Source: Apostichopus japonicus (taxonomy: Eukaryota; Echinodermata; Holothuroidea; Aspidochirotida; Stichopodidae). Taken from it: a stretch of 64,000 nt of DNA. The notes beneath the pieces are model-generated. The model was not told where the DNA came from. It ran no database searches and saw only the letters and a program-made list of their open reading frames with translations. The stretch is taken from assembly GCF_037975245.1 (NCBI RefSeq), contig NC_092579.1, positions 4,550,001 through 4,614,000 of the forward strand, in the 5' to 3' direction. Positions 839 to 54,300 of this stretch are shown here, piece by piece (positions within the stretch are counted from its first letter, which is position 1; every line of letters begins with the position of its first letter). A program made the position numbers and the translations under genes.

Positions 839-2649
839 ATCAATGTAGAATTTGACTTAATGTATCCTGAAAAATCCCAGAATTTCCTGACTAAATGGGA
901 TGCCTACTTCAAGAAGCGTATCATAGCTGTAGGAAAGAAGTTTTCAACAGCTGTGGCCTTGCTAATCAATTCTTTTGATGAGTGTGACAGTAAGTTTGAT
1001 CATTTTTGTTCAAGTATGTTGGGGTAGTAGGTTTGACGTAAGTCTGTCCTATGGATTGGTGTGTTCATTCAGAGAATAATGCCTACATTAGAAAGAAAGA
1101 CTGCCTTAAGCTCTTGGAATTTTTAGATGTGCCCTTTAATTAGTTAATTAGAGAGGCACTGTAAAAGTTGTGGGAGGTGGATGGGAAATCTCCATACCAT
1201 TTGACCTATGGTGCATTTCTGTGATGTTCTAATTCTTTGATATTGTTTCTTTTCATTTTAGAAGACATCTGTGCAATATCTGCTCTTATCTACATGTTGC
1301 ACAGATCTGTCAACATGAAGAGGTCCAGTTATGGGAAGCTGGCAACTAGTAGATCTGGAGCTGTCCTGTACTTTATACAGAATATACCTGTAAGTAAAAC
1401 CTGTAATGAATTAATGGATATTTACAAGGGGCCACTGAAAAACCATGCAAATAAGTGATGCTTTCATCACACTGTTAATAGTAATACCAGTATCCAACCT
1501 ACCCATAGTGCTGATATCATCCCCCATAGTCTGCAATAACATCTTTCCAATTGTGTATTTCTTTCTAAACATGTTTGCTAATACATAAAGTAGCACCAAT
1601 GAGACCGTTGCTTTGTTATATATATCACTGAGTATGGTACAGTGTGGCCTTCAATACATGCACACTGGGACTCAGAAAATGCAAACACTGGCATATATGT
1701 GAATTAAGGCCGGATTTGTTTTGATCTGATCTTGTTTAATTGTTCACATTTGCCAAACAGCCTAAATGTTGACAATAAAGTGCAGTATATGTGAAAGTGT
1801 GATTATAGGCTTACTGTGAGCAAAGGAAGAGACAATTTGGTGTCTTGACACAACATGTGACCTAACGATCTTGTCAGCATTGAAACCTCATCACAATACA
1901 TATTTTTTTTTTTTAAAATGTACTAGCATTCTAAACCAAGAAAATGCCATCCATGATAGGTTCGGCTATCCCTTGCTTATTATTATTATTATTATTGGTA
2001 GTTGTTACACTGGTCAAAGTTTCTTTGCAGGCCATCCTTCATTGTATACATCACATGTAACAGACATTGCATATGTGGTGACCAAAGCTAGCTCTGCCCT
2101 CTCTTGCCAGTCGTATGTATTGTCATTATTCTTTCCTAGGGAAATACAAGTACTGTATCCTTTGTTTCTAGGTTCCAAGTTAAGGAATCCCATGACATGA
2201 TTGATTTATCGATGTCAGGAGTTCTCAACAATTGGGTTCATTTAAAATGCATTAATGGGTTAAGTTCACTCCCTTGACAATTCTATAATAATATTCCTTT
2301 AAATTGATTTCATATCCTTACTCAACAGGAAGGCACAGATGTTGAAGTTGCAGCCCGAGAAAGGAACGTCTATCGTCAGCCATTTATACTTTCTGTTGGA
2401 CATGAAACTGGCCATCAGCAATATTTCATTGTAGCCGACAAAATGGCTATTCCAGCTGGGGAAAATATTGTGGAGGCAGCTGACATGCTCTTCAAATGTC
2501 ACTATGTATTTAATGTTGAATACGCCCCACCTCTCCAGCAATTTTGGGAGTTTTTGGCTTCTGTGATCTATGAAGTCTTGCCACCAACAGAAGTCAAGTC
2601 TCTTGTGCGAAGCTTAGCCACATCGGTCAGAGCTGTAAGCTTTCAGTAA
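839..2649 (+). CDS. SAMD3-like family protein, 3' exons (partial gene)
   Basis: Three exons join cleanly: 839-989 (acceptor TTTCAG, donor GTAAGT, ends phase 1), 1262-1389 (donor GTAAGT, ends phase 0) and 2329-2649 (ends TAA). Together they encode about 199 residues. The protein has a cysteine/aspartate-rich stretch (DECDS), a conserved block around QPFILSVGHETG, and a hydrophobic C-terminal segment with the pattern YVFNVEYAPPLQQFWEFL. I recognise this C-terminus from the large family of uncharacterised animal proteins often labelled 'sterile alpha motif domain-containing protein 3-like', which is multi-copy in many genomes. The SAM domain itself would be further upstream, outside the window. 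No lesion is visible in these exons. Function is unknown. The repeat array at 4.13-4.42 kb suggests that the gene may sit inside a DNA transposon. The family call rests on memory of the C-terminal pattern, not on a search. Confidence 0.6.
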
Positions 2650-4127
2650 AAAGGGAATGTTGTGATTGTATTACATTAGTTATTTTCACTGTTGTAGCCA
2701 ATGGCAATTAAATCTTGGGAATCCAATACCCCTGTGATTGATTATTTCCTTCTTTGCTCATGTTGGAAGCATAAACATCTCAAGGTCAAATCATTGTTTC
2801 ACTTTGGTGGAATGCAAAGATCTTTTGGAACATAGTACCTGTATGACATTACATAATTCCTACTTAAGTTTGTTTGTTAATTTTCTTGCATTTAAATACG
2901 CAATTGCTTGTTAACTTTAACCACAGATATACATTGGATAGAAGTCGCTTTACATCATCTGACAATGATAGATGTTTGCCGCGAACTGAAGATGTCTCAC
3001 ACCATTTTAAATCCATTCAAATCAATGATTCACGTACATGATTTGCATGTTAAGTGAACAAGATTCAACTGTTCGGAACCTGTGTGGCAATTTGCTCAAG
3101 CTTCAAACTTAAAACAGGGAATACTTCAGACTTGCTCAAAGTTTTGGCAATCTTCTATACCGTCTGTTTTCATTAGAAGTGTAATAAGTAATGCTATTAG
3201 TAGCATGCATAGTGCATACTACCATGGACTGTAGGTGTTCTTGTTTTGTGGAATTCCTCTTTTAAAATTAAATATAACATCAATAATGACAGGCATTTTA
3301 ATTGCTTACTCACATCTTTGCAACGTCTGCGCATATATCCTGAAGATTTTTTGTCTTTATCTTTATTAAGGTAAATCCAGCGTAAGACAAATTTATCAGG
3401 CCCTTGATTGCCTGATGTTCATGTTCTATAAAAAACGACAGTGTAGGCTATTTGTTTGCACTTCAAATGTTTGAATCGTGCAAACACTAAACGTTGCTTC
3501 TCTCCAGTGCAGCTCTGTGATGTTAATGTATTCAGTGACAGAGATAGAAGCAGATAGATTAAACAATACACGAGCTAGTACAGGAATTTACACGAAGCAT
3601 AGAAATTATTTTTTTAATTAAGTCAATTTTTAGCTGAAAACATTAGCTCACACCAATGAATTTAATTCTATTTCATATTTGAAGCCAAATGTTAGACTCT
3701 CTTACATGTTATCCCTGTAAGGTATCTACAATTCTTGTTCAACTGATATTATATCCAAAGTATAGTGTGTTCATTGATGTTGAAATATCATTTGTTTTCA
3801 ACCATTTTTTTTTAACTTTCATTGACCATGTTGAAATATAACATGATTTGTTTAACATTGATCCGAATAGTTTATTGTGTTTTCTGGTGTTTGTGTGGAG
3901 AAAAAGACTGAAATTAAGACCACAATAATTCAGAAGCCGTTATGCACCTTTCAGTAAATTCCCCTGCATTAACAGATCATTGAATGTTGTCGTTGATGGC
4001 CTTAAATGCATCTATGTTGAAGAATTCCAGCACTTATCCAACACGGAGGATCAATAGAAAAGCTTGTTCAATCCAGAATTTGCAGTTTATAAGATTGACA
4101 GTATAGCTGTGATGTGTAATAATTCAG
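2650..4127. other. 3' flank of the SAMD3-like gene, no gene
   Basis: AT-rich sequence without a supportable exon on either strand. It lies between the stop codon and the CAGTCTAA repeat array, and may be the 3' non-coding part of the same transposon. No clear polyadenylation site could be picked. Confidence 0.4.
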
Positions 4128-4419
4128 TCTAAAGGACCGACTGTTCAGTCTGATATCAGTCTAATAGACTGAAAGTATTCAATCTAATTAAGACTGGTGC
4201 TGCAATAAATCAGTCTAAACTGCTGACTGTTCAGTCTAAAGTGGTTTGATTTTCAGTCTATTAGACTGAAGAGTATTTAGTCTAATTAAGACTGACCTTC
4301 AGTCTTTACATTTCAGACTGGAATTCAGTCTAAGTAGTCTGATCCCTTATCCCATCCATCATTAGACTGAAATTTCAGTCGATTAGACTGAAATTTCAGT
4401 CTCTCATTTTAAGAGAGTA
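4128..4419 (+). repeat. Subterminal repeat array and possible transposon 3' end
   Basis: About 290 bp densely packed with CAGTCTAA / TTAGACTG words in both orientations (more than ten), often as short palindromes such as TTTCAGTC-GATTAGACTGAAA. The array stops abruptly at CTCTCATTTTAAGAGAGTA (4401-4419). The end resembles a CACTCTTAAAA-type terminus read in reverse. Arrays of short words just inside the tip are typical of CACTA-type DNA transposons, where they bind transposase. The array lies 1.5 kb downstream of an intact SAMD3-like gene. Element identity is inferred. Confidence 0.5.
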
Positions 4420-5870
4420 TAGTAAATAATATAGCAGATAATGGACCCCCCTCCCCCACCAACCTTTATTTCCGTTATTTCCGATAACCCTATATCCAAT
4501 CTAACTTGTCTGGAACCATCCTTGAAGAGATTGTGTCAGCCAATGAATAAGCCATGTTTCTTTGATAAATCTTAAAAGATCCTCCATTAATTAATTTGGC
4601 AAGACAGTATTAAACGCACTTGAAAAATCAAGAAAAAAACCCTTTGTTATAATTCATTCCCGGAATAACATTGTGTCTCATTGAGATTGCAAGTTACAAT
4701 ATCAATGAGAGACAATATCTTGGATTAATCAAACGTTTGATACCTGCAATACATGGATTCTTCGAGTGGCTTGCAGCTTCCGTTTTGGAACAGCAAGTGC
4801 CTTCTCCTTTCTTATGTCGAGCAACATTATGGGTTAACAATCCCAATGTATGGAAACCAGGGCTGAGGGTGTATCAGTTTGGTGAAGTTCATTTGGTTTG
4901 TATGTACATGTTCTGACTTGGTTAATTTTTCCAAAAGGTCTTTTATAACTTCCCCTATGATCCTGAACTTCTTAGCCTGTGGAAGAAAACATCCAAGGTT
5001 CTGTCAAGTGGAAATCAGCTGGTATTTGCATGTTTTAATTTGTCATAATACTGGTATTTGTTTATTGAACTGTTTCCATTCACATTGAAAGGAGACAGGA
5101 AACCAAAAGAATAAAATTATATCGCACCCAACCCCCCGCCCCCCCCCCCTCGACCACCAGCCCAAGTGGCACTACGACATTACACATTGGCAAAAAAATA
5201 GCTCTATGCCATGACTTTTAAAAACCAATTTACTCCCGTACCGTGCAAGATAATGGACTTAGATATTTTAGGGATAAGTTCATCACAAGGATCATGGTGA
5301 TATAAGTTCATTATGATGATTTGGGATTCATTTCCTTAAATCATTAGGTATGGTTAGGCTAACACTAAGAATGGCTTAAATTAATTAACCTTGGTCGATG
5401 TATTTATAGTCTTCGCGGTTACAATTAACAGTTGAGTGATTTATTCATCATTTTTATACGAGTTACACCAATATGTAATCAATGTCCGTCAGTAACTTAC
5501 ACCACCAGTTTCCTCATTGACACACAGCTCTAATTAAATGTATCGACATTGTAACACCGATTTAGTAGAGAAAACTAGCGTTAGTCCAGACTACTGTCCA
5601 TAGCTACTCGCGCAACAGATACATCATCGAATGTACAGCAATCATAACACTAGGTATATTTATGTTGACCCACTGGCCATTCTGTTTTCACGAGTTATGC
5701 TATCGTGTATGCAATGCTGCATAAATCAATTAAAAGACGAGCTGGAAATAATAAAGATATAACCTTCCAATAATCCTGGGTGTTTTCAAATGGCAGTTAG
5801 TTGGTTCTCAAATCTGTATGACATGGTTGTTATACTCGGTTTGTTCCCATAGGCCTACGGGACCATTTCG
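4420..5870. other. Intergenic, no gene seen
   Basis: No convincing ORF or exon. A C-rich run lies near 5130-5152. The sequence otherwise looks unique at this scale. Confidence 0.4.
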
Positions 5871-11428: not shown

Positions 11429-12841
11429 ATGGATTCAGATTGGTGGAAGCAGGTCCCCTGCCACTTTAATTGGCAGCTTGAGAGGGACTGTACCGTGGAT
11501 TACAAAACACTTGTAAACAAACTCGACAGTCAACTTGAAACGAGAGACGAGGTAGGTTGGAGAGATTCAGTATGTGACCTTCTGCTTTTTCGAGGGTACA
11601 TAGAGGTCTTCCCGAAGTTCAAAGAAGTGAACCTTAACCCGGTGAAGGCTCGTGAATTCTTTCTTCAGGGGGAAGAGGAGGCTCGTGAACTTGACGATAA
11701 CCAAGAGCGACAGGCTTGTCTAACAGTGTCGTCTGCAAACCGCCTTTGGCTTCTGGAGAACTTCAAGCAGGGTGGCTCCGCGGCGCCTAATGATGAACGA
11801 GAAATGCTGCTCAAAACGCTGACGGAAAATTGGTTGGCAAAGCCAACAGCGCAGTCAGAGGAGCTTCATGCTTACATGTATGTAATAGAGGGATTTGCTC
11901 TGGCCCGTCTTGGGCTCACTAGATGTCAAGAAGCACTGCAAAGATACAAAAGAGCGACAGAAGTAATCCAATCCAAAGCATCTTGGTTTCACACATGTGG
12001 TGAATTGGTCGGACGGTTAGCTCGCAAAGATACCAAGAGCAACACCGACCGGTACGATGAAATGGACGAGGAAATTAAATACTATGAGAAGGCTATCGAG
12101 CTAGATCCAACAAATGACGCTGCCCGGTGTGAAATGGCGTCAGTTTTGATCAGAATTCCAGAGAGAAGCATTGAGGCGAAGCGACTGATTGAAGAAGCTC
12201 GAGACGAATCGTGTCAAGTGATTCTCGTCAAAGCTCGTTTTTATCGTAGGCAAAACGAGCTTCTAAAAGCGCTGGAAGTGTTACAAAAGGGTGAAAAGTT
12301 GAAGACGCCTAGATCAGACATATTCTTCCAAATGTCTCTGATATATAGTCATGTTGCAAAGCAGAGTAATAATCATGATGACAAGTACAGGTATCTTCGA
12401 GGTGAGATGAGTTGCATCGACAAATGCCTCGAAAAGGAGCCTGGACATTACTTTGCACTTCTCAATAAGGCCTGGGCTCATCACAAGTTGAAAGAGTATG
12501 ATAGAGCAGAGGAAACTTATTTGGAGGCGATTGAAAAATTCAAGTCATCTGAACAAAGTCACTTGGAGACACAGCACCGGTTTGTCCAGCACTTAGTGAA
12601 GTCAAATAGTGGCCGCAGAGTTACGGAGAAAGCTGCATCGATTTGTGAAGAAATATTTGATTCTTGTGTGAAAATACTGAAGGAAAGACCAGGCGAGATG
12701 GAAAATAAAATCACAGGAGAGTGGGGATACTTGACTGAAGCTACAAAAAACCTTAAAAAGTATTACTCCAATATTCCAGATGGACATGTAAAAATTAGAC
12801 AACTTCAGTTTAAATTATTCCAGGTAAATATTAAGGATTAA
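11429..12841 (+). CDS. IFIT-like tetratricopeptide repeat protein
   Basis: A single uninterrupted coding block. I place the start at the ATG at 11429 (MDSDWWKQVPCHFNW), giving about 470 residues; an in-frame ATG at 11369 would add 20 residues that look non-coding. The N-terminus carries the CHFNWQLE block that matches the 'CHFTWEL' start of vertebrate IFIT proteins. TPR-like helical pairs follow, including KYYEKAIELDPTNDAARCEMA (about residues 212-232), an ARFYRRQNELLKALEVLQK block and a segment HYFALLNKAWAHHKLKEYDRA. IFIT proteins bind foreign 5'-triphosphate or cap-0 RNA in vertebrates; whether this one does is unknown. As in vertebrate IFIT genes, nearly all coding sequence is in one exon. 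A possible acceptor (TTTTCAAAG) lies just upstream near 11394. CAG|GTAAAT near 12824 could be a donor, so the last five codons are uncertain. Confidence 0.75.
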   Translation: MDSDWWKQVPCHFNWQLERDCTVDYKTLVNKLDSQLETRDEVGWRDSVCDLLLFRGYIEVFPKFKEVNLNPVKAREFFLQGEEEARELDDNQERQACLTVSSANRLWLLENFKQGGSAAPNDEREMLLKTLTENWLAKPTAQSEELHAYMYVIEGFALARLGLTRCQEALQRYKRATEVIQSKASWFHTCGELVGRLARKDTKSNTDRYDEMDEEIKYYEKAIELDPTNDAARCEMASVLIRIPERSIEAKRLIEEARDESCQVILVKARFYRRQNELLKALEVLQKGEKLKTPRSDIFFQMSLIYSHVAKQSNNHDDKYRYLRGEMSCIDKCLEKEPGHYFALLNKAWAHHKLKEYDRAEETYLEAIEKFKSSEQSHLETQHRFVQHLVKSNSGRRVTEKAASICEEIFDSCVKILKERPGEMENKITGEWGYLTEATKNLKKYYSNIPDGHVKIRQLQFKLFQVNIKD

Positions 12842-13146
12842 TTAATACCTTTAATGTTACCCTCATTTAAAATAAGACAAAATGTCTGCCAAGAATGTGT
12901 CATTTTACTGTAAATCCATAAATTGCAAGCAAGAAGATGAAAACATCTATTGAATGGAAAGTACGGTAGGCATTACATTTATCACTATAGGCATTACATA
13001 TCACTATAGGATACATGCGTACTTTACGAGAAAAGCGTGGTTCTTACATGTTTTGTTGACTCATACTGTAAAAGTATATGGGAGGATGTGATACTTGTTT
13101 GTATCTGTTTGATTGCGAAAAAAAGTTCCTCTATAATATGCAACCA
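12842..13146. other. 3' flank of the IFIT-like gene
   Basis: AT-rich, no ORF. A short direct repeat with CATTACAT...ATCACTATAGG occurs at about 12970-13010. The transposon terminus at 13147 follows directly. Confidence 0.4.
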
Positions 13147-13149
13147 CAC

Positions 13150-13385
13150 TCTAACAAATGGTGTTAATGTTTTAACGCCTAAATTAACACATTTTTGTAA
13201 CACTTAATGAACGCGTTTTAGTGTTAATCGGATAAGGTATTAACACGTTTATGTGTTCATGTAAAATTAACGCCTCAACGCGTCTTCAGCCATGTAACAC
13301 TTAATTAACGCGTATACGCGTCTATAACAACAATTGTGTTTTAAAAGCAACACTAGGTGTTGAAACAGGGATTAATGCTTTAGCA
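13150..13385 (+). repeat. Subterminal GTGTTAA/ACGCGT repeats of the transposon tip
   Basis: Repeated GTGTTAAT, AATTAACAC and AACGCGT words in about 230 bp, with two closely similar 20 bp units (TAACACTTAATGAACGCGTT and a TAACACTTAATTAACGCGTA copy). It is the counterpart of the CAGTCTAA array at 4.1-4.4 kb, in the same position relative to a SAMD3-like gene. Confidence 0.7.
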
Positions 13386-14319
13386 AGCATGGTGTTCATT
13401 TTGGTTTTAACCATTCGTTCCAAAATGACCTTAGATGACCCCGGGGCAGTCTGGGAACCAGCTTGGTAAAAGATGTGAAGCACACTAAGCAGCCCTTGCT
13501 TGAACTAAGGTAAAATCCCAGTTTTTATATACACAAAGATGACTGGGTTAATTTCTCAATCTGGAAATGAATTACTTGTGCTCACATGAGGGTTGAAACA
13601 AACTGTTCTTATTAAGAGTGGTACATCTTGTTCACATTACGAACTCTTAAACAGTGCAATGTATATCATGAAATGTGCAGAGGACTGAAACAAAAGGAAA
13701 CAGATTATTGAATATGCACTTTTTATTAACATCCACTACTTCATTGAATCCAAAAAGCCACAACACCTGTCAACTCCAAAAGAATCATGCCAAGAAAAAT
13801 TAAAGCTCTTTAATGGAAAATTTAAGCTTGTTAGAAAACTGCTGGTAATTGCTTCCCTTGAAGTATGTGTACGGCTCTTCAAGAATATGCTGTTGGAGGA
13901 AGCCCAGCAGCTGTCCATATATGGCCGGATAGTTCAAGTCAAAAATGTAATATCCACCCAGCAGAGCAACAATTGCTTTAAGGGAATTGTTTGTTCCACA
14001 GTCAATGAATACTCCTCCACCAACAGCATAAATAATTTTGATGTTATTGTCAATTGTTAGGCTGCGAAGCTCAAGAGGGGCTTTATCCTTCACGCCAAGC
14101 TTCTGGGCGAAGGACAACCTCCGGCATGTCAATGTTGTCGACCTGCAATTAAATAGGATGAATATTATCAACAGTAACTATATATTCTTGAAAGTCATTT
14201 CATAAATAATAATGTTGCCATTCATATATACCTACTCTGATATCCTGTTCAAGGAAGCTATAAGGGACCGAATAATAACCTTTGACCTCAAATATAAAAC
14301 AGCTCATTTGTCATAGAAA

Positions 14320-14925
14320 CACATAATTGTGACTTTCTGCACACAAGGATGCTGCGTTACTTTATCAAGTGAGGTAGTCATGAAGGAGTCTAGTCTTTTT
14401 TAAGCCCCACAGTGAATGTCCATGCCACACTAGAGTATAGCAGACTGGAAGCACAATGGAGTTGAACACTTGGGGAGCTTTTTCCCTCTGCCCAAATGAC
14501 GTGATTGTCAAACACCATTATCCGGCAACCTCATGACTCATGCATGCCAGACTAAAAATAATTACTAAAATGAACTCAGGCTCGCACGACACAGAGCCAC
14601 TGCCAAGGCAGAAAAGGACTCAGTGACCTACACATTTTCACCCAAAACAGGGACAAACTCAACAGTACTGTCCAAGATACCACCAAAGGACTAGATGTTG
14701 GTCTTGGTCGATGACACCTGTAATCCCAACGGAGAAACCACAAACTCTGCAAGCAAGGTAGCATCTTCTACAAATACCAGGTCAGACACCCGAACTTCAC
14801 CAAATGAAACCCTGCAGTATGGGTCTCTTATAAGCCTCTCCATAATTAAGTGCATACAGGTGTTGAAAAGGCATAGGAGCTAGTGTGCACCCCTGCCTCC
14901 CCCCTGAAACAAGAAAGTCAATGAC
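14320..14925 (-). mobile_element. Degenerate non-LTR reverse-transcriptase fragment
   Basis: On the minus strand, broken frames give RQGCTLAP, then VSFGEVR, LVFVEDATLLAEFV (an eroded FADD catalytic motif) and PLGLQVSSTKTN. Further on, near 14.4-14.5 kb, comes VFNSIVLPV with a tryptophan-threonine pair. That order matches the fingers/palm to thumb part of a LINE reverse transcriptase. It contains several stops and is nested between exons of the SAMD3-like pseudogene. Confidence 0.65.
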
Positions 14926-16061
14926 TTTGTGATTCCTTGTTCATGAAAACTGCTGTATTCCATATTTTACCTTATATGACCCTATTTGACCACGGTATAT
15001 TATGATGGCAGTAAATTACCAGAAATCACCATGTAAATTTACTGTAAATTACCGACTCACAACACTGGTGTCTATGACCCCAAGCCCCTTAGATTAAATG
15101 GCAACTTACGGAAGGAGCATCAGTTAGGACTTCGGCAACATTTCTGAAGAGCTTGTTGGAATTGGCCTTTATTAACTGACGGCCCTTCTCTATGTTGGAG
15201 CTGCCAATCCATGCCTACAGTTCTTCTAGAATCTGAAACCATAAAAAGCAAGCCCTAATAACTAAGAGTGGTGGCCCATGGCAAACAGTAAGGTCACTAA
15301 CCATTCTAATTGGGGGATAAATGCCAGGGTGCCAAGGTCTTTCATGTTATTTTTAAAACTGAGCCACAAAATAATTCTCCTTCCTGCACCTAAGCCTCAT
15401 ACTGTCCCTTCTAGTGACGTCACAATAGGGGAAACCCCGATTGGGGTAACACAGAGCAGACTGCTGCTTCCGATATTATTCCCTACTGCTGAGTGCATAC
15501 GTAGTGACATCACCTAAAGAGAGCTGGGCCACGTATACAGGTCATGGTACTCTGCTATAAGTGATTCTACAGAAAACACATACAGTACACACATGCACAT
15601 AATTTGTGTAGACAGTCACAGAGTACTCTATGTGTACCTTAGTGTTAGATCAATTGTAGGTAGGCTACATCAGAACATAATTGTGACACCATAGCAACTC
15701 ACATAGCCACCATCCTGCAGGCAAGGAATCATTGCCACAACCTCCTTCACTGTTTTGCCAAGTCTCCATGATGATAAGTAGGGCCGGACTACTGCCATTA
15801 GCATCTTGATAGTGGCTTTACGTCGCTGCCCATTCCATTCATCAACAAGTTCATCGCAACGTTCCAGGAAGTCATCTTCGGATAAAACTTTGCCAGTCGT
15901 AGGTCTAGAATTGAATAAATTTTGTGTTTATTGCCAAAATCGTATTATGAAGGGCAGGCACAGTGTGGTTCCACAATAACAATTCACATTTATTGATGAT
16001 TCATTGTCTCTCTCTATTCAGATTGTACCTCTTATACTTTCAGTGTCCCCAAGTGAGAACC

Positions 16062-16091
16062 CCTGCTCATTTGGGGCCCCAAATGAGCAGG
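16062..16091. repeat. Perfect 30 bp palindrome
   Basis: CCTGCTCATTTGGGG is followed immediately by its exact reverse complement, with no spacer. It could be a tiny fold-back or the fused tips of a lost element. No function is evident. Confidence 0.9.
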
Positions 16092-17769
16092 TTAAGACCT
16101 ATAAAATGTAAGCGTTTTGGAACCAGACTCAGTAGGCTCACAAATTTTTCAGACACAAATGACCTTTCATCCCAGCGCTCGGGCAAATTACTGAAAAATA
16201 GGAATACACATTTTCAAGGATTCATTACATATACAGCAAGCAAGTCTACTTTACCATGGAAGGCTGAATCTATTTTTTTCGTGTATTACCTCATCTATAT
16301 TTTGGATTATGTAATTGACATATTTTTCTCCCAAAATCTTGTGAATTTTTCAAAATTTTATGCTAACCTGGCGATTGTTTAGATATGCTTTTTAAACCTC
16401 AAAACTATGGTCATGAAACAGATTGTTTCAAAACTGGCACAGAGAAAAAGAAGGCATGTAAAATCCCAACATTCAAAATTTGAGCATGATGCCTTGTTGA
16501 GTTATTTTATCTATAATGAATTTCACCTTCATCGATGACGTCACAAGGAGAGGGGGGGGGGGGATGCCAAGGCCACCCATAGACTCTACACAGTAAATGC
16601 TGCTACTTTGCACCTTGGTGGTGGAAAGACGAAAGGTAATATTTACAGAGGAAATTAATGAAATTCTTTCAAAATCTTGTGAACAATTTTGTAAGTTTGT
16701 ATTCAGATCCCAATCTGAGTTCATTTGTTACAGTGTTTTCCAAAGTATGTTTTGCATTAACTTTGTGTTACACAGGTTCCCACAGTGGCCCTTGTGATGT
16801 CACAAGGGGTATTGCGCAAAAGCAGATGTGTCTTACTTTCACACTCATATCGGCTGAAAGTTTGTCTGAGGTTTTTGGGGTTCCTCAATAGACGGTACCG
16901 AAATACCTGAAGGCATATTTACATGATCATTGTACTATAAAGCAATATGTTATTCCGTTTCCTTCTGAGCGTCCGTAGGTAAAGGGTAAAGAGCATGCAA
17001 ACCAACCTTCCCAAGTGGAATTTTTTTTGCAACTGGCATGTCTGGTGACTCAGCTGATGAACAGGTGGTGAGGGATGTTTTTCTGTTTTCCTTCAATGCA
17101 GCTGATGAATTCTGGAGCTCAGCTTACTACTGAAATATGACTAAAAAGAAAAAAATTATTTAAAGCTTTCTTGCATATAGAGCAAAACATCCCAAAAACA
17201 TATACCACTTCATTAACCAGGGCAACATGCACATTAACAGTCAGAAAGCTCTGACCACTGAGTACTAAACATCAGGGATGAATATACTTTTACAATGGCA
17301 TGATATGCTTGGTGACTGGGTATCTTGAGGAGACGAGGAACACTCCTGTTGTGGTCCAATTTGGCACACTTTGCAGATGGTCTAACCATGGAGTTACGAA
17401 AGACACTTGCTGCTATTGAGTTAAGTACACCAACAGACTGATGTTATTGTTTGGTCCTGGTCAACAGTGTCTTAGAGAGATTTGGCAGAAGGTATGGGTC
17501 ACGTCAAGAATGCTAATTAGAATGTAACCTGGTGAAAAGAAGCACTGTCCTAGTTTTTGTATTCTTCCATGGCTCGTCATACTACATACTCATGAATATT
17601 GATGAGATCGGCACTGGAAAATGATGGGGACCATCTACTCATTATGGGTATTCCACCAGCCAAGTACTGTATGAGACCAATCTGACCTTGCATCTTCCAC
17701 TTATCTTGTTAATGAGGTACTGCTTGCTGGTTTTGCTATCTCACATCATGCATTTCCTAACAAGCTTAC

Positions 17770-17947
17770 TGGTAATTAGTCTGCTCTGGGAGTGTGATAC
17801 CCTGTATAAAATCCAGTCCCCAAATTCACCATAGACCCTAAAGCGAGGGTTATTCCTGTGGATTCTGCTGATATGATTTGTGAACTGATTAAAATTATCT
17901 GCAATGTAGTTGCACATGGTGCAACAATGAATAATTTCATCTCCCAT
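17770..17947 (-). CDS. C2H2 zinc-finger exon inside the candidate transposon
   Basis: From an ATG at 17947 (minus strand) the exon reads MGDEIIHCCTMCNYIADN, then FTNHISRIHRNNPRFRV. The spacing Cys-X2-Cys-X12-His-X4-His fits a classical zinc finger at about residues 8-29. A good donor (A|GTAAGC) follows at 17769-17764, giving about 59 codons. N-terminal fingers of this form, followed by an 'RFRV' block, occur in multi-copy uncharacterised animal proteins. It is probably the 5' exon of, or a companion to, the decayed SAMD3-like gene 3' of it on the same strand. The usual second cysteine-bearing block after RFRV is not present, so this copy may also be eroded. Confidence 0.5.
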
Positions 17948-18639
17948 GATGTTATACCTAGTAGATAAGATACCCCCAACCACTAGTAGAAATAGTTTAT
18001 TTCATGACATACAGTATCTGAAAACTACCAAACTGAAAAATTTACTGGACAAAATGATGCCATCCTTAACTTACAGAAGCTTGAGATAGCACAACAGAGA
18101 AACAGGTCACTGCACTGTGGAGAGAAACAACAAAAAAAAAGAAATTAAATAAATAAAATTACTAACAAGGTCATTAGGAACATTAATCCACGAGTTTTGA
18201 CCCCGACTGTGTGAATCCGGGTTCTGGGTCCGAATTTCCTTTTGGGGTTTGAATCTAATTATATTATTTGTTTATAGTGAATTGTGATTCTTTTAGAAAT
18301 GTATAATGACAAAGCCATGTTTTGACAGTAAACTTTAATAATATATCATTTTTGTTACTGACTTTACGACTAGTTCCTGGTATATTTCTAGGCACCATCG
18401 GGCAGGAGCCTGCAGGCCACCTTTTATTAAAATTCAACAATTTATGCAAATTAGGCATATTAAGTGACCTCCAGTGACCTTTACTGCCTTAAAAACTATC
18501 AGCACTGAATTTTTACCGTATCAACTAGATTTTGTGAAAATCTGACAAACTTAAAAAACTGCATAAATTATGCAAATTATACAGAGCAAATGACCTCCAG
18601 TCACCCCAACTGTATACTAAAATTTCACGTGACAGAAGA

Positions 18640-18950
18640 TAGACCATACCCACCAAGTTTCGCTAACATTCGACAAACATTGAAAAATTGCAGGGGTTAA
18701 ATGTGGTGATCATGAAAGTTGGTCAGTATTACCATTGACCAATAGTACATATGGGGTGTTCAGGAATTTTAGGGCAAAGGTCAGCATGGAGGTCAGTTTT
18801 GGCCATTGTGTGAAAAATTGCAAAGTGCTTCTCCTACAGATCAAATTGGATGATCATGAAAGTTAGTCAGTATCACCGAGGACCAAAGGTACGGGTGCGT
18901 TCAGGGATTTGAGGCCAAATGTCACCTAGGGGTCACTTTGGCCCCAAATA
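18640..18950. repeat. Imperfect duplication of about 170 bp
   Basis: Two successive blocks share GATCATGAAAGTTNGTCAGTAT, then a 'GTTCAGG...TT...AGG' segment and AGGTCA...TTTGGCC. GTGACCTCCAGTGACC words occur upstream. Probably part of a dispersed repeat within the candidate transposon. Unit boundaries are approximate. Confidence 0.45.
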
Positions 18951-20262
18951 GCTATTTTCCTGCACGTTTGTAGTGAAATACTAGGCTAAGATAGGCCCAC
19001 TGATAAAGTTAGCCTAACGTTGGAATGGTTGACTGTGTCATGTTTCGCTGCGGTGCTTCCACTTTCAGAAAACTAGCGTGGGTCAGTTACGTGTAATGGT
19101 GTAAGAAATACAGTATGGGGTGGCCAGATGCAAGCAACATGTTCAACCAAAAAATTATGATTTTGATTGGCTTTTTTCTAGTATTTATAAGATGTTAGGA
19201 ACAATATAATAAATCTGGTGGCAATACACTCACAAATGAGGAAATCTTGATTTTTCTTGTTTGCTACTGCGGCTAACACAAACTGCGGCTTGATTTACTT
19301 ATAAGTACCGATAGCTGCATAGTGTCACATTGGCATGCTAGCTTTAGCACACTTTTCCGGTGGTTTTGCCAGTCTGTGTGAGATAATTACAAGTATTTAT
19401 TACATTACGAGCTGTTTCAGACTTATTTTATTAAATTCTACAGGTTAGGAAATGACAATTTTCACAAAATACCACTTAAATATTAGTAACTGCCTAGTTA
19501 GGGCCTAGAGAAAATCGGGTTTTAATTACGACCAAGTCCAACCTGTTTAGCAGATTACTAAGGCATAATTCATTTTGACTGTTGTAAAGCTAACATTACT
19601 GTGGGAGTTCTAGTTTTAACTAGTTTTACCGGTTCCATTTTGGCTTATACTCAGGCATAGATAGTTCTAGGTTAGGCTAGAAATACAATTTCTACAGTTA
19701 ATATTTATTTAATCGATAGGGTTAGGGTAGTATTGTTAAGTTCTTACAGTTTTTTCTACTTAAATTTAATTATTCTGGCTAATCTGGAAACTTTTTAGAA
19801 ATCATGATCACTTAAGTTCACGACTGCATGCTGTGCTCTGCACCAGTGCGCTGTGGTATATGACGTAGCACACATGACAGTGACGTAATGCACATGTTTA
19901 CTGTTGATCAGGCTATTAATTTTCAAAATTTTTGGTAAACAAACAAACACATCAAAATTACAAGTTATCACAAGGAGTTGGGGCCTAGCGATGGCGCTTG
20001 TTTGTGGGTTCGCCCCCCAGATAACCTAAAATCTGACGGTCCTTTGGCCAGCAGGTGCGGTACCGTCATAAGAGTCAGTCCAGAGAAAGCGGTACCACTA
20101 AGACAATCCAGCCCAAATTGCCCCTACGAAATGAATTCCGCACACCACCTTTAATCCTCTAATCTGTAAGTAAATTGAAGAACATTGACCCATAGCCTGG
20201 GGAAATAATTAAGAATCTGTGACAGGAAGTACATCACACTGTGCACTAAGTCAGTACAGGAG

Positions 20263-20532
20263 TGGCTATTCTTATGACTGTTCGTAAGAATAATTTCCGA
20301 TTACGCATGCGCAGTTGCTATTTTTATGACAGGAGTACTATTTTTTACGACCAGGAGTAACAATAATTTCCGGTTAGGGTAAGTGTTAGGGTTAGGATTG
20401 GGGTTTAGGGTTAAAGTTAGGGTTACCCCTACTACATGCGCAGTTGCTTTATTTACTTTACTGCGCTTGAATTCGCCTTTGTCGTAAGAATAGTTTATAA
20501 ATAATTGTTACAACTAGTCGTAAGAATAGCCA
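20263..20532. mobile_element. MITE-like element, 270 bp, TGGCTATTCTTA tips
   Basis: Perfect 12 bp inverted tips, TGGCTATTCTTA at 20263 and TAAGAATAGCCA ending at 20532. Longer imperfect complementarity involves CGTAAGAATA and CATGCGCAGTTGC words near both ends. The middle holds degenerate GGTTAGGGTT-like words. No target-site duplication is obvious. Confidence 0.6.
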
Positions 20533-21481
20533 TGGACTCCATCATTATAATTACATTCTGGGTATGAAGTAGGGCTAGTTCGGTCACAGATTCTAAATTA
20601 GAGCCAGGTAGCCTAGCCCTATTTCTTCTGAGCATATTCAGGGTTTTATAGGCTTCATTTGTCAGTTTGCGGAACTGAATAGGCAGATATGATCCCAAAC
20701 CTAGGCCCGTAATTTAACATAGACCTAGCCTAGGCCTAAATAGCCTACTGACTGTGTCCAACTTAGCAGCTAAGGGCTAAATAGCCTACCGTACTGACTG
20801 CGTCCAACTCAGCATTGTTGACTTAGTTGCAAGTTAGCAGACAGCACGTTAGGCTATCTGCATTCCGTTTTGTGTCAATGTGTAGCGTCAGTTAACGTTA
20901 GGCTATTTGCCGCCTTTTAGTTCAACAATTCTGGCCTGACGGTCGCTAGTTCTAGGCCTATGTTCAATTTTCACGTCTAATATTTCACCCTATTAATCTA
21001 GGTAATGCAAAAATTAAGCAGACTGCAAAATACCTCTTCTTTTCCTTTCAATCTGACTGGTACAGAACGGTAAATCAGGAGGTGATGATGATATTTAGGT
21101 AGGCACTGCAGGCGTACGACGTTCGCGTGTCGCGCTCGTGGTGTCAGCCTCAATCCACCAATCATATATCAATACGTCTGAAGAAGGCGTGGCTTAATTC
21201 GTGACATCATTTGCTATCAACACTTGGGTGCTAATACTACTTGGGCCGTGCTGTTAATATTAATATACCACAAAGACGCTGGTGTTGATAAAAACATTTG
21301 AGGCATACGTCGAGCTCAATATCGTTACGCGATCACAACTTTGGAAACACATGGCAGTGTTTATAGAACTGGATTAACACCAATAGCCAATGCGCACTAC
21401 CATGCGGGACGATGCTATTGAACGGAATGTTTAGAAAATAACACACCAACGCGTTTTCAAAAGACGTTTCTTTTTAGAGTG

Positions 21482-23322
21482 CATTGTTTTAATCATATAA
21501 CACAAAGTTAGTTTAAGAAGTTCATCTTACATGTCGTCGTGAATATGCTTACATATATATTCCATTTTACTTGCTCAATTTTCATATTTGGAAAACTATA
21601 TAACATAGAACACATTTACAGCATATTTGTTATATATTCTTGTAATGTAGTAATTAATCTGGTTTAATCACATTGTTAAAGTCTTGATCACATCAGACCT
21701 GAGAAAAACCGGAATATAATTCTTGAATTTATCCTAACTATTTCTTTATCAGTTTCTACATGTCATTATGTTGGGACAGGCTAAATTAAACATGTAGAGA
21801 AAGATGATGACGCCATAATGACAGTAGTAATGACGATGGTGTATGACACCTCCTTTGTTATGCAAATGAGGCTATTGTGTTGAGGAATTAATATTTTTAG
21901 TAACATTTTTGTTAATATTTGTATTAATATTTTATTTTTTTTTATTTATTTTTTTTAATGAAATTTCATATAAGTTTCTATATATTTTTTTGATTATTAT
22001 TTTTTTTTTGAAAAATGGTTACTGGAAGACAGTTTTTTGTCTTGCCTTTTGGTCTTGAGTTTTAGGGTTATGAGTCAAGAAGTATCGATGAGAATACTGG
22101 AAGACAGTTTTTTTTTAACTTACTATTTTTTTATGTGGTGAGGGGATACATTCAAAGAATCATTAACCCCGAGAATGACATGGCGACGTCTACACTTTTC
22201 ACCACACTGAGTTAAATTGTTTTTTCTCCTATGTCGTCTCGGATGAAAAGTCTGTAAATAAAAATAAAGAGATATTTGATTGAAGAAAAGAGTATTTAAG
22301 TAAGTTAAAAGATAAAAATACAATACAATTATAAATAAATAAATACAGAGACATTGATATAATATTTATTTTTTACCTCCGTTTATTTTAACTATACATT
22401 AATATCCAAATAACGTATCCATTCAAATATTACAAAAATTAAATAACAATGAAGTTAAGCATTATCATGCAGTATAATAACGATCAACGTGTCGGATAGA
22501 AGACAAATAAATATGATAAGAAAAATTAGAAGAAGTACTACAATTTTATAGAAACACTTCAATAGTCCCACACTCACTACAGAAATATTACAACGAATAG
22601 TAGCAAAAACTAGGAGAAGTGAGGATGCAGAAATAGCGAAATATTAAATATTTCGGATATTTATATAGATAGATATTTTATGTACATATAATAAATAAAT
22701 ACAAAGATATAAAAAAAATAAGTAACTAAAATAATGAAAAAGCACTCTTCTGATGTCGCACCGTCTTCCCGTTAATCCACGTGTATTAAAATGTACAACA
22801 GTTAACAGCTTGATCTACTTTTCAGAGAATTACTAACCCTTAGATGTGAACATAGTAAACACATTAAATAAATTACCTGAAAAAAATCACTTCTGCTTTT
22901 GAGTTGTTTGGGTGATGACCCCCCCCCCCCCTTTGTTCACAAGTGTCTTAACTTCCGGGCAGAGATAAGCCGTTCATTATTTCAAGACGGACCATTTGGT
23001 GTTGGTACCCGTATTAAAAGGAATAAACAAGGTTCAAGTTAAAAAATACATTTTGAGGATTACCGGTACCCTTTGTTGAATGCTCCTTAGAATCGATAAG
23101 GAGCATAAACTCTAATAACATTTGATACAAGTAGAGTGCCATTAGTGAATTAGAGGCTGAACATATGCACTATAGTCTATGATGGAATGGGGAAGGTTAA
23201 GAAGTATTGTTGTTTACGACTTAAAAGGAGAGGAGAAAAGGCAAGTTAATTTACAATCTGTAGGGTTGCGGTTAGTAAAACCTGAAAGGTTCAAACCTTT
23301 CCCTGTATCTGTAATAGTCACC
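21482..23322. other. AT-rich intergenic region, no gene
   Basis: Long A and T runs. A CTGGAAGACAGTTTTTT motif occurs twice near 22,023 and 22,097, and there is a C-run at 22,920. No supportable exon on either strand. Confidence 0.45.
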
Positions 23323-24160: not shown

Positions 24161-24877
24161 GCTTGCCATACTTTCCTCACATACTCTACTTCTAATACTA
24201 TTCTTCATTGTTTGTCTATAGTTATTAGATTATTATATATTATTTGCTTTGAAATTTTGATAAGGGTTCACGGGCAGGGGCGGACTGGATCTTAAAACCG
24301 GCCAGGGCATTTTCACCTAGACCCGCCCATTATTCATTGATATTGATATGTTATACTGACTAGTGTTTGCCATCCTACCTGAGGCAGGGTTTAAGGGGAG
24401 GGTTTACCCCTTTGAGATTTTTTTTTAAATTAAGGAATGCCTAGATGCAAAATGGTGCTGTATTTCTCAATTTTGTAGGTAACAATAATCTTTCAAAAAA
24501 GACCCAAAAATAATTTCCCAGAAGCAACACTTGATTAAACTAAGAAAAGTGAAAAACGTAAACAAAAAAGACAAAAATATGTTTTAGACTGAATTTTATT
24601 AAGTTTTTCAAGCATTTTGTGACAACATGAAAAAAAGGAAAAAAAAAAACTGAAACCTAAATAAAATCCACTAAAACATATATGTTCAATAACACGAACA
24701 CACGTCATGTCTACGAGAGTAAGAGCCTACGCAGTTCGCTGCTTCTGGCATCCACACTATCAATGATATTTTTAGTGTCAAGTTTGGCCAAGATCTTTTT
24801 TCCCACAGACATCAACATGAACGCCTCAAGATGTTCGTCGACGACTAACATTCGTCTAATTTTGATAACCAAAACAC

Positions 24878-26876
24878 CAGGGGCGTATCCAGGATTTTCT
24901 AACCCGGGGGGCGCGAATTACTATCTAAGCGGAGCGCCACCATCGGTTGGCGCGGAGCGTACAAGAAAATTTCTGGTTTTGATACCCCCAGATCACCGGA
25001 AATGGCACTTCTCGGGCTTGAAAATGACCAACCAGATGTACACTTTTGCCTGAGAACCAAGTATTTCCCAACAGTTTTTTTTACCATCCATAACCTTTTT
25101 GAAGATTGTCACCAGTCACACATCATGTTCGACCTCATTGCATGTCCTGTGGATCATTGCTTTTGTAGGTGATTCTACGTCACGGCCCACAATATCCGAA
25201 AGCCCCACTTTTCAAGGTTTTAAGACCATTATTTGTTCAGAATTTGAAAATTCACATTTCTCGTGAATAAAATCACTTCAAAACATACCCATAATGTTGC
25301 ACAAAATTCAATCTATGGACAACCAATATAGAAAAACCTCCTTAAACCCCCAACAGACAGGTCAAAATTGCACGAGTAGAGGGAAGTTTGATGAAGAATG
25401 TTGGTCAGGAAATTTTCGAAAATTGAGACACAGTTAATTTATTAGTGTAGAAACATTAAAACCTCTTGTAACGGCTATTATAAAACTTCGTTGAAGGATA
25501 TGAAAATACCAGATATTTCCGATATCAGATATTTCGAAACCGAACACTACACACATAGGCGTAGGAGGCGCGGGCTGCAGCCCCCCCCCCCCCAACCAAT
25601 TTTATTCCCCTGAAATTCGGGCAATATGCTGAGAATTTTTCCGGCACCTACTAAAAGAAAAATAAATAGCAATGATGTAGCTTAAGGAAATGAATAGTTA
25701 AAAAATGATCTCCTTGGTAATTAAAATAAAGTTCTAAGCTTGGCCGACTAATTCGCCATTACTACTGTAAAAGAGAGTTTTGATATAATTGGACCTGTAT
25801 GCTTTTTCTACATCTACATAAGACATTTCGTTGTTTACATTAGCATCCGGCGGTATACTGCGCAACTTTCACGAACCGTACGGAACACGATGCCATTTGA
25901 TGTAATGACCGATGCTTGCTTATATGATATTGACATTAACATGTTGAACACGCGAAAAATTTTGCTTATATTTTTCGGGCAAGTCGTTACAGCCCCCAAA
26001 TCCAATTGGGCTCCTAGCTACGCCTTTGACTACACACATAGACAGTTTTGAGGCTGTTCATCCTGGAACATGCATTTTCATGCTCACTGATATGATGTGA
26101 TATCTGCTCTTTGCTTTACAAATTCAAACAGACGTGTAGCGAGTAATTTGCCAAGGGAGGGGCGAAGCCTGTAGGCAAACTATCTAAGCGTAGCGCCACC
26201 GAGCTGGCGCGAAGCGTACAAGAAAATTTTGGCCGAAAATGTCTCCCAGAGCGCTGGAAATGACACTTCCCAGTCCTTGTAAGTTGCATCTAGGCATTGT
26301 CTATTTTGGAATTACTAGCGATATCATAAAGAAAATTTGCTCAGGGAGTGGGGGGGGGGGCGGTCGCCCCCTTCCCGAAATGCGTCATGTTCCCCGACGA
26401 CTCGGTCGAGTTCAAGACCAGCCACAGTTGGTTCCATAGCACAATTGTAACAATTGTTTAAGGCGTCCATACACACACACGCGTTATGATAGACCATATA
26501 TAGTATATATATATATAGATACATTAGTGGGAGAGGAAAAATGGAAACGTCAAAAATGGAGTTGTCAGTGTAAGGGGTAGGGTGAGGCGCACACCCCCTC
26601 CGTAATACTCGATCCGTCACTGGCTACCCTGTGTATATAATAGGGGTCAGCGTTGTAAGTATGACTGTTCCTCTCTCTCTTCCAGAGGTCTTGGCGTTTA
26701 TCTTCTACTCCCTCCTTTTCTCCTTTTTCTCTCTTTCTTCTTTTTCTTTTCCCTTCCTTCCTCTCCTTCTTTCTTTTCCCCCTCTTTTTCCCTTTTTTTC
26801 CCTCTTTTTTTCTCTCCTCTTTTCCTTACCCGGGGGGGGGGGGCTCGCCCCCAACGCCCCCCTGGATACGCGCCAG
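24878..26876. mobile_element. Candidate 2.0 kb element with GGCGTATCCAGG tips
   Basis: The left tip is CAGGGGCGTATCCAGG; the right tip, reversed, is CTGGCGCGTATCCAGG (14 of 16). AACACC lies at both borders, but its register on the left overlaps the tip, so the target duplication is uncertain. Just inside are G-runs and the 'gcggagcgccacc' blocks (about 24.91-25.03 kb, repeated at 26.17-26.30 kb). A polypyrimidine tract fills 26.66-26.83 kb. No transposase is visible. Confidence 0.45.
25554..26031. mobile_element. hAT-like MITE, 478 bp, nested
   Basis: The left tip is CATAGGCGTAGGAGG; the right tip, reversed, begins CAAAGGCGTAGCTAGGAG. ACTACACA flanks it on both sides (25546-25553 and 26032-26039). 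The match extends five more bases because the element also begins CATAG. Related sequence lies at 6475-6692. It sits inside the 24878-26876 element, so it inserted later. Confidence 0.75.
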
Positions 26877-27343
26877 AACACCCTACCGTAGGCCTATGTG
26901 GGTCATTTTTATTCATACATAATCTCTCAGGAATTAGCTACTGAGTGATATCCAAATAATCTAATAAGATTTTACCTTTTTAACTTCGTTTTCTGGAGGG
27001 GTTGCCAATAGCACGTTCTTTTGTTACGAACTAACAGACTAACATGGTGATTTCATGAGCTGATTCCCACAGTTAAAAATATATTTCTACACAGCCCGTC
27101 TGTATTCAAATTAGCTATTGTGAAAATGGGCTGTAATTTTACCAGGCTCCCTAGCCCACCGGGCATTGCCCAAATGCCCGTGTGGCCAGCCCGCCACTGC
27201 TTAGACAAGCCATAGTGTAAGTTATGCTACTATACACGGTGTAAACTCTATTAGTTGGGAATCTCCTTGCTCACACCGTGCATGGGAACTAAACACAGTT
27301 ACATGCCACCGCATTTACAGATATCCCCGGAAAATCAACGAGA

Positions 27344-51300: not shown

Positions 51301-54300
51301 TGATGATGTCATCTGGACAAATACTCTTCAAAAGCTTTACTAATAGGTTCTTATAATCTTGTTGATTTGTCCTGGAAACCTAATACATTTTGAATGTTTG
51401 CTTAGCATTTTTGCTTTGTAGAAATATTCTCTTTTTTTGCCCTCTGTGTATAAATGATTGACAAAATATGAAGAAAAGTGGAGGCATTTTCAGACGAATT
51501 GCCATGACGATATCAATCTTTCTTCTGTTGCCAGATGATGCATTCATAAAATATCACAAAATTTGAAAAAAATTATCATAAAAAATGCTATGAGGATGTG
51601 CTTTCATTTATTCACAGTAACCTGAAGTTGTCCAAGTATTTTAGTTTTTTTAGTTTTTGAGCTGTTGCCAGATGATGAATTCACAAAATATCACCAAATT
51701 TGAAACCTTAACATAAAAAATACTATGAGGAGGTGCTTTCATTTATTCACAGTATCCTGAAGTTGTCCGAGTTTTTGAGTTTGATGATGACAATGATTGG
51801 GTGGAAACTCATGTACTATTTGAGGCAACCAGTGGTGACAAAACTACTGTTGCCATGGAAATATTTCCAATCGATGATGTCATTTATCTGGCTTTATCAA
51901 GAAACTTGACAGCCATGGATGACTTCAACACCTACCAGTCCAATTTTTTCAGCTTTATTGAAGGTCCAAAAGGTGAGTTCATTGTCTAGAAGATGTTCAT
52001 CTGCCCAGGGGGTGGGGGTGGGGGAGGGGGAGGGTGGAGTAGGGGAATGGGGAGACAAAAGTTAGGATTTGAATATATATGGAACAGTTTTTCATGAATG
52101 CTGTTTAATTGTATTATATCTGTCATATTTAGTAAGCCTCCTTATTTGTGGTTTCAATTTTTGTTTGTTTACCAGGGATCACTTCCCGAGAATAAATTTG
52201 GAAGCCTTGATCAATCTTTAATGATCATAGTTGTTCCTAGACCGAAATTGTAAAAAAGTCAATCATTATATTTGGAATGTGTTTTGGGAGACATAGAACA
52301 CGGCACATATGAAATAATTTTTTTCGTAGATATTTTGTGTCTTTTTTTTGTGTGCAGCAAATGTAATAATTGATGTAAAATTGACAAAAATTACCTTCTA
52401 TTCAATCATATTTGAAAGAAAGCATTTACAGACAGGCTGACATATTTACAGGGAATGGTTAAATGTGATCGGTCTTGTAGATAGAGAAAGAAACATGTTT
52501 GAACTACCCCTGTAATAATTCTTACACAAAAAAATATCAAAAGTCCCAACCAAAGTAACTGTACTGTTTTAGCTGTGAAACTTGGCAGTTTCTACAGTAG
52601 GTGAAAGTGTGTGAAACTGACAGACTAATATAAATATAGCGCATTTGAAGGATTGAGATGATTTTTAGTAGAGAGAGAAACACAGTGTGTCTAATTATGA
52701 TTATTGCACAACGTACCTATCCAGAAAAAATTAATACAACTATAAAGTGTTTTACCATGGGGCTGAATCCTGTTTACTACGTGTGTAGCCGTGGTGAATG
52801 GATAAAGACGAGAAGGACACTAAGTCTTCTACTGGATAATTTCATCTATTCAATCCGTGAAAACTACAAAAATATATATAAAACTTGGCTTTTTAATTTA
52901 CATTTAAATCTGAGACCTCTTATTACCATGTTACTACGGAGCGCTTACAAGTTAACGTTTCTTGATTCTGTTTTTTTTTCTCTTTCGACGCCTATTTCTA
53001 ATACCAATAAATGAATCCAAGAGATATTTTTGAACTGTTTGATGCTATTCTTGATCTCGCATAGTATTAATATTATACATGGTGGCTCTCTTTTTCAGAG
53101 GTTCCTGTGGTTCCTATCGATGCTATAATTGAATGTCACGACTACATTGAAACCCACTGGAACAAAAGTACGATTGCAATGCACGATGTCTATGCGACGC
53201 TTAACGAAACTTTCAAAGAGTATGGGGATCAGGAATTTGTAGGACCTCTTGCTCTTAGTGGTGAGTCTCCCCGTTATATCTGTTGAAGAAACATCCAGTA
53301 ATCATAGACTAGTGTACACATGATGCATCAACAACATCACCTTTGCAATGTTAAATGCTTTTCTTGTATCTTGCAACAGGTGATCTCTCAGTTCTGAACA
53401 TTTTTACGGTGGTGAATTTGACAGTGGAGGGAGACCACGACTATAACATCGATCCAGCATTCATCGCTCACGTAGAAAAGAACAATGAGAATTTACTTGA
53501 CCTCAGGTCATGGCTTCCCAATCTGGTATCCTTGACTGGTGATCATGTGATTCAAGGTAAAATTTATGCGTCAGTTTTATATTTTGTTTTATGTGTGCAT
53601 GTTATCACTCCCAGTAGGTATCACACCATTATTGGTAATAACAACACCTTGTCCACTTACAGTGCAATGATTACTCCCATTAGGTTACACAGTCTTCCAG
53701 AAAGCACCATTATTGGTAATAACAACACCACCACTGACAGTGTAATGATTACTCCCATTAGGTTACACAGTCTTCCAGAGTACATGGATATCAAATGCAC
53801 CATTATTAGTAATAACAACACCTTGTCTACTAACAGTGTAATGATTACTCCCATTAGGTTACACAGTCTTCCAGAGTACAATGATTTCGAAAGCACCATT
53901 ATTAGTAATAACAACACCTTGTCTACTTACAGTGTAATGATTACTCCCATTAGGTTATACAGTCTTCTAGAGTACATTGATGTCAAAAGCACCATTATTA
54001 GTAATAACAACACCTTGTCTACTTACAGTGTAATGATTACTCCCATTAGGTTATACAGTCTTCTAGAGTACATTGATGTCAAAAGCACCATTATTAGTAA
54101 TAACAACACCTTGTCTACTTACAGTGTAATGATTACTCCCATTAGGTTATACAGTCTTCTAGAGTACATTGATGTCAAAAGCACCATTATTAGTAATAAC
54201 AACACCTTGTCTACTTACAGTGTAATGATTACTCCCATTAGGTTATACAGTCTTCTAGAGTACATTGATGTCAAAAGCACCATTATTAGTAATAACAACA

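Follow-up and report, generated by a model that had tools for sequence, protein, structure and literature searches.

CACTA elements are described as having terminal inverted repeats, direct and inverted subterminal repeats that extend over several hundred nucleotides, and a 3-bp target duplication (PMC8978399). The same source gives them two open reading frames (ORFs), one for the transposase and the other for a protein of unknown function (PMC8978399). In maize, the tnpA and tnpD products are both reported as essential, and the binding of TNPA to DNA is stabilised by TNPD (PMC1636069). Animals have relatives of these elements as well: those in the same paper start with CCC rather than CACT, and in one of them, SmTRC1, 7 of 14 copies carry a duplication of 2 bp (PMC1636069). 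Outside this group, the Kolobok lineages that carry accessory proteins, such as KolX, provide a precedent for a second, lineage-specific protein in a eukaryotic transposon (PMC9587614).

This article deals with a 64-kb window (the whole stretch of DNA that was analysed), and more particularly with the segment 13147..21481, which we regard, with a probability of roughly 0.8, as a real element: a decayed DNA transposon with a CACTA/EnSpm-like build. A gene lies inside it, here called gene A, and the window holds a second gene, gene B; we take both to belong to the "SAMD3-like" group. Many unexplained "SAMD3-like" genes are often found in the annotations of animal genomes. The coordinates of all these features are collected in Table 1.

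The ends of the element

Inverted tips at 13147 and 21481 had been proposed in the first-pass annotation, and they are indeed there, with CACTCTAA at both ends in opposite orientation. The terminal inverted match covers 8 bp and then 2 of the next 3 positions, and both terminal inverted repeats have a CACT start, although at 8 bp they are short and, taken alone, of chance frequency. The window contains 3 copies of CACTCTAA for an expected 2.49, which places the tips by themselves at chance level. For the 2-bp target duplication, suggested as possible at first pass, there is a candidate in the form of CA on the left and CA on the right, a flank pair that chance would give about once in 16. Among the 54 inverted CACTNNNN pairs spaced 0.3-15 kb apart, such a 2-bp duplication is seen in 2, one of them being the element's own pair. 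When read directly, the flanks AATATGCAACCA and CATTGTTTTAAT hold no duplication of 3, 4 or 8 bp, which is evidence against an element of the hAT or Chapaev type.

Immediately inside the tips come the subterminal arrays. Counted per 250 bp and allowing at most one mismatch, GTGTTAAT occurs at the left end 0 times outside the tip, 7 times inside and once in the next interval inwards, and at the right end once in the next interval inwards, 5 times inside and once outside, for a background elsewhere of 0.35. ACGCGT is present 6 times in the 64 kb; the first 250 bp of the element account for 4 of these and the last 250 bp for 1. The pattern G[CT]GTT[ACG]A is found 11 times at the left end against 0.59 in shuffles, and twice at the right end against 0.35 (p 0.048). 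Both ends had earlier been called TGTTAA-rich. The repeats themselves are confirmed on either side, but this word describes them badly, TGTTAA and TTAACA amounting to 2 + 2 in the left 300 bp and 1 + 1 in the right, and GTGTTAAT/ATTAACAC plus ACGCGT makes a better description. Overall, these repeats exceed chance by a wide margin on the left and moderately on the right.

Because the GTGTTAAT-type patterns had been written with both ends already inspected, the test was redone using 8-mers picked by left-end enrichment alone. Ten of the top 12 words (9 of the 11 distinct ones, since one is the reverse complement of another) are present at the right end, with nominal p values from 0.0004 to 0.12 for words that overlap and are non-independent; the other 2 of the 12 were not found in the right end. 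For AACGCGTA, the right-end count is reached by 6 of the 2530 windows scanned, each of them overlapping the right end itself. The two ends have 50 7-mers in common, compared with 25.6 when the right end is shuffled (p 0.01), and the same comparison gives p 0.016 for 8-mers and p 0.048 for 9-mers. In a pair test on the 54 CACTNNNN pairs, the element's score for 7-mers shared between ends is 25, tied with two others and beaten by one (33).

Could there be no transposon at all, and just a host gene in decay that, with its regulatory DNA, happens to lie between two chance tips? This would agree with the chance frequency of the tips, with the fact that blastn found no second copy of the element within the 64-kb window, with the modest array at the right end and with the one chance pair in 54 that shares more end 7-mers. 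It does not agree with the way in which motif density jumps at both tips, nor with the enrichment of left-end motifs at the right, and we consider it quite improbable. Once this motif density and the left-to-right sharing are weighed against the pair test, the two ends appear to belong together, and they are likely partners of one CACTA-like element.

Table 1. Positions, strands and properties of the features discussed in the text.
Feature	Positions	Strand	Remarks
Candidate CACTA-like DNA transposon	13147..21481	.	8335 bp; paired tips with CA on either side; subterminal motifs common to both ends and stopping at the tips
Left tip CACTCTAA	13147..13154	+	
Right tip CACTCTAA	21474..21481	-	
Candidate target duplication CA, left	13145..13146	.	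Chance expectation about 1 in 16
Candidate target duplication CA, right	21482..21483	.	
Left subterminal array	13147..13396	.	Forward and reverse copies of GTGTTAAT/ATTAACAC, with ACGCGT; 7 GTGTTAAT-like sites (3 forward, 4 reverse)
Right subterminal array	21232..21481	.	Motifs as at left, sparser; 5 GTGTTAAT-like sites (3 forward, 2 reverse)
Gene A exon 1	17830..17947	-	ATG at 17947; C2H2 finger
Gene A exon 2	17007..17122	-	Linker; frame open after exon 1
Gene A exon 3	15703..15904	-	Phase mismatch with exon 2
Gene A exon 4	15110..15232	-	In-frame stop
Gene A exon 5	13800..14142	-	C-terminal module; frame change inside; stop at 13800; local likeness to gene B
Gene B	839..2649	+	Exons 839-989, 1262-1389, 2329-2649; earlier exons beyond window edge; open where visible
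CAGTCTAA/TTAGACTG array	4115..4424	.	Ends in a TACTCTCTTAAAA tip-like end; 8 of the 9 exact copies in the window

The gene inside the element

Gene A is located entirely between the ends of the element. Zinc-finger exons on the minus strand had been announced at first pass, and five exons can be drawn there, the first with a C2H2 finger and all four introns running from GT to AG. The spacing of the finger is C-x2-C-x12-H-x4-H, and the Pfam C2H2 models reach E values of 0.027 and 0.031, which lie below the cut-off. As exons 2 and 3 are out of phase, an exon or a boundary of gene A has been missed or lost. Exons 3 to 5 share one joined frame, interrupted by the stop in exon 4 and by the frame change in exon 5. 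The gene is thus broken or degenerate.

What gene A has in common with the "SAMD3-like" proteins that occur in many copies in fish and invertebrates is, we assume, its C2H2 start and its C-terminal pattern. The transposon-like subgroup of SAMD3-like proteins has an N-terminal C2H2 finger; the finger expected of this subgroup is present in exon 1 of gene A, and the N-terminus of gene B lies outside the window. For the candidate exons, Pfam gave matches below the cut-off only and NCBIfam gave none, and the best E values were 0.04 in PHROGs, and 0.87 and 1.8 in the PDB for gene B. Among the matches listed in the literature, none links a SAMD3-like protein to a transposon.

The introns and flanking DNA of gene A hold some features of their own. 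In the intron between exons 4 and 5, the minus-strand stretch 14691-14879, for which Pfam and the PDB gave no match, presumably corresponds, judging by its motif, to a decayed fragment of a LINE reverse transcriptase. A 50-bp direct duplication (18699-18748 and 18843-18892, 80% identity, separation 144 bp) also lies inside the element. At 20263-20532, an inverted pair of 34 nt (82%) flanks a telomere-like GGTTAG run (20372-20425), and this is possibly a nested small element.

Searches for a transposase and for relatives

Pfam was run on 17 reads (7 + 10) of exons or ORFs from the element, for which 157 ORFs of at least 30 aa are listed. Neither a transposase nor any other Pfam family came out above the cut-off in these 17 reads, and 0 of the 17, out of the 157 ORFs, match a DDE transposase (Transposase_21/tnp2). 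The copy at 13147..21481 may be non-autonomous. One could also imagine that the proteins of the gene A family are themselves the recombinases of a transposon superfamily not yet described, and require no other enzyme, given that gene A is the sole recognisable gene between the ends and that the 17 reads are without a known catalytic domain. The exons searched show, however, no similarity by sequence to DDE or other nucleases, and such a role appears very improbable.

Rfam, applied to all 64 kb with its gathering scores, gave 0 matches. Relatives were looked for in several collections. In viral contigs, none of the stretches found with gene B exon 3 (0 of 14), gene B exon 1 (0 of 25) or gene A exon 5 (0 of 18) was confirmed; with gene A exon 3, 2 of 12 were confirmed, each a match of 13 residues, and these were discarded as chance. 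The genome contigs of a prokaryotic-type collection gave 0 of 71 for gene B exon 3 and 0 of 78 for gene A exon 5, and there were no plasmids with gene B exon 3 and no phages with gene A exon 5. Since these collections of contigs, plasmids and phages are made of viral and prokaryotic sequence, this absence of relatives says little.

A second gene next to a second array

Gene B, whose exon borders were partly set by eye, seemingly is of a type similar to gene A, with a weak likeness. The two share 20% identity in a MAFFT alignment, the likeness being limited to the C-terminal module, and BLASTP returned no alignment between them. When exon 5 of gene A is compared with gene B, shuffling gives p 0.008 (5000 shuffles) and p 0.016 (1000); only one of the nine validly framed exon pairs, a count that leaves out the three pairs with gene A exon 1, falls below p 0.05, the other 8 staying above it.

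About 1.5 kb beyond the stop of gene B starts the array at 4115-4424. Allowing at most one mismatch, TCAGTCTAA is found there 14 times (4100-4424), compared with 0.07 per 250 bp elsewhere. Repeats were also counted in 545 windows of 300 bp, a set from which any window in contact with a tandem array longer than 60 bp was excluded. When the best 25 of the 545 are ordered by p, ranks 1-3 are taken by this array, the 4th by 12001 (an ORF with TPR repeats) and the 5th by 13101, which is the left end of the element. Hexamers repeated at least 4 times, again among the best 25 of 545, number 7 at 4101 and at 4201, 6 at 4001 and 5 at 13101. From this ranking, the two richest interspersed arrays of these best 25 windows adjoin genes A and B.

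It is possible that the 4115-4424 array is the 3′ end of an element to which gene B belongs. A separate element of about 0.7 kb would fit as well, with inverted segments of 12 nt (92%) lying at 3693-3704 and 4410-4421; pairs of such a length are common among those found in the same way. The first-pass annotation had counted a gene of this kind without tips as an argument against the transposon. Gene B goes partly in that direction, none of the 3 exact CACTCTAA copies of the window being near it (its 5′ side lies outside the window), and partly in the other, with the array and its TACTCTCTTAAAA end placed past the 3′ end of the gene.

Is gene A then a simple passenger or a captured host gene, carried by a non-autonomous CACTA-like transposon and with no role in its movement? 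The absence of a transposase from the 17 scanned reads and the decay of gene A both point that way. The presence of gene B near a different array nonetheless counts against a chance capture of gene A, which does not predict it, even if the link between the two genes is weak. We hold the passenger explanation to be somewhat unlikely.

Other features of the window

Directly outside the left tip, at 11429-12838 on the plus strand, an intronless gene encodes a 470-aa TPR protein (Pfam TPR, E down to 8.4e-12), which we take to be IFIT-like. A 96-bp minisatellite of about 14 copies (95% matches) occupies 53701-55050, mostly within an open frame of 559 aa, and the region around it, from 45 to 62 kb, presumably resembles a gene of the TSPEAR/EPTP type. 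Finally, the ORFs 24661-25053 and 26606-26944 have similar Gly/Pro-rich stretches and may both derive from a single interspersed repeat.

A proposed role for gene A

The first-pass annotation spoke of a candidate CACTA-like transposon, with its gene as cargo or as a second protein of the transposon. Of this, the element with paired ends is well supported within the window, and the ownership of the gene comes down to its position and to the place of gene B near another array. Tentatively, and with odds that we put just short of even, we propose that gene A is a gene of the element and encodes an accessory end-binding protein. The spliced product, with its N-terminal C2H2 finger, would be, or would formerly have been, a factor encoded by the element; it is predicted to bind the subterminal sites and would so aid the pairing of the two ends for a DDE transposase, itself to be supplied in trans from another copy. 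What the sequence shows is the anatomy, with its tips, the motifs common to both ends and a broken gene between them; we infer the mobility of the element, the binding of the protein to its sites and the trans-acting transposase on another copy. An accessory protein combined with a transposase in trans is the most economical mechanism.

A wider version of this proposal may be formulated, which we judge unlikely: the animal "SAMD3-like" C2H2 proteins, a large and scattered family, would be the second protein of CACTA-like elements, each subfamily having evolved together with its own subterminal word (GTGTTAAT/ACGCGT for gene A, CAGTCTAA for gene B), and the single-copy SAMD3 of vertebrates would be among its domesticated descendants. 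If SAMD3-like genes were transposon genes, their counts would reflect transposon load, not the expansion of a gene family, and the transposase of animal CACTA-like elements would acquire a candidate partner.

Comparison with known systems

The locus resembles CACTA/EnSpm (CMC) elements by its CACT-type tips and by direct and inverted subterminal repeats spread over a few hundred nucleotides (PMC8978399). Short subterminal repeats in both orientations are a trait of the group, and here 7 and 5 GTGTTAAT-like sites are concentrated inside the tips. It differs from them in that its tip is CACTCTAA and not CACTA, that the 17 reads hold no transposase and that the window contains one copy. With the animal CACTA relatives it would share a duplication of 2 bp, for which CA is the candidate here, whereas their CCC start contrasts with the CACT-type CACTCTAA found here (PMC1636069). 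The target duplication of the plant elements measures 3 bp. What is proposed is a likeness to CACTA elements, and membership is not claimed. Kolobok elements form another superfamily, and their target duplication is TTAA, compared with CA here. In maize En/Spm, TnpA works beside TnpD, with a presumed role in pairing the ends of the element. The gene A protein differs from TnpA, being a C2H2 finger protein for which no sequence similarity is claimed, and the likeness would lie in its proposed place as a second protein of the element, working on the repeats at its ends.
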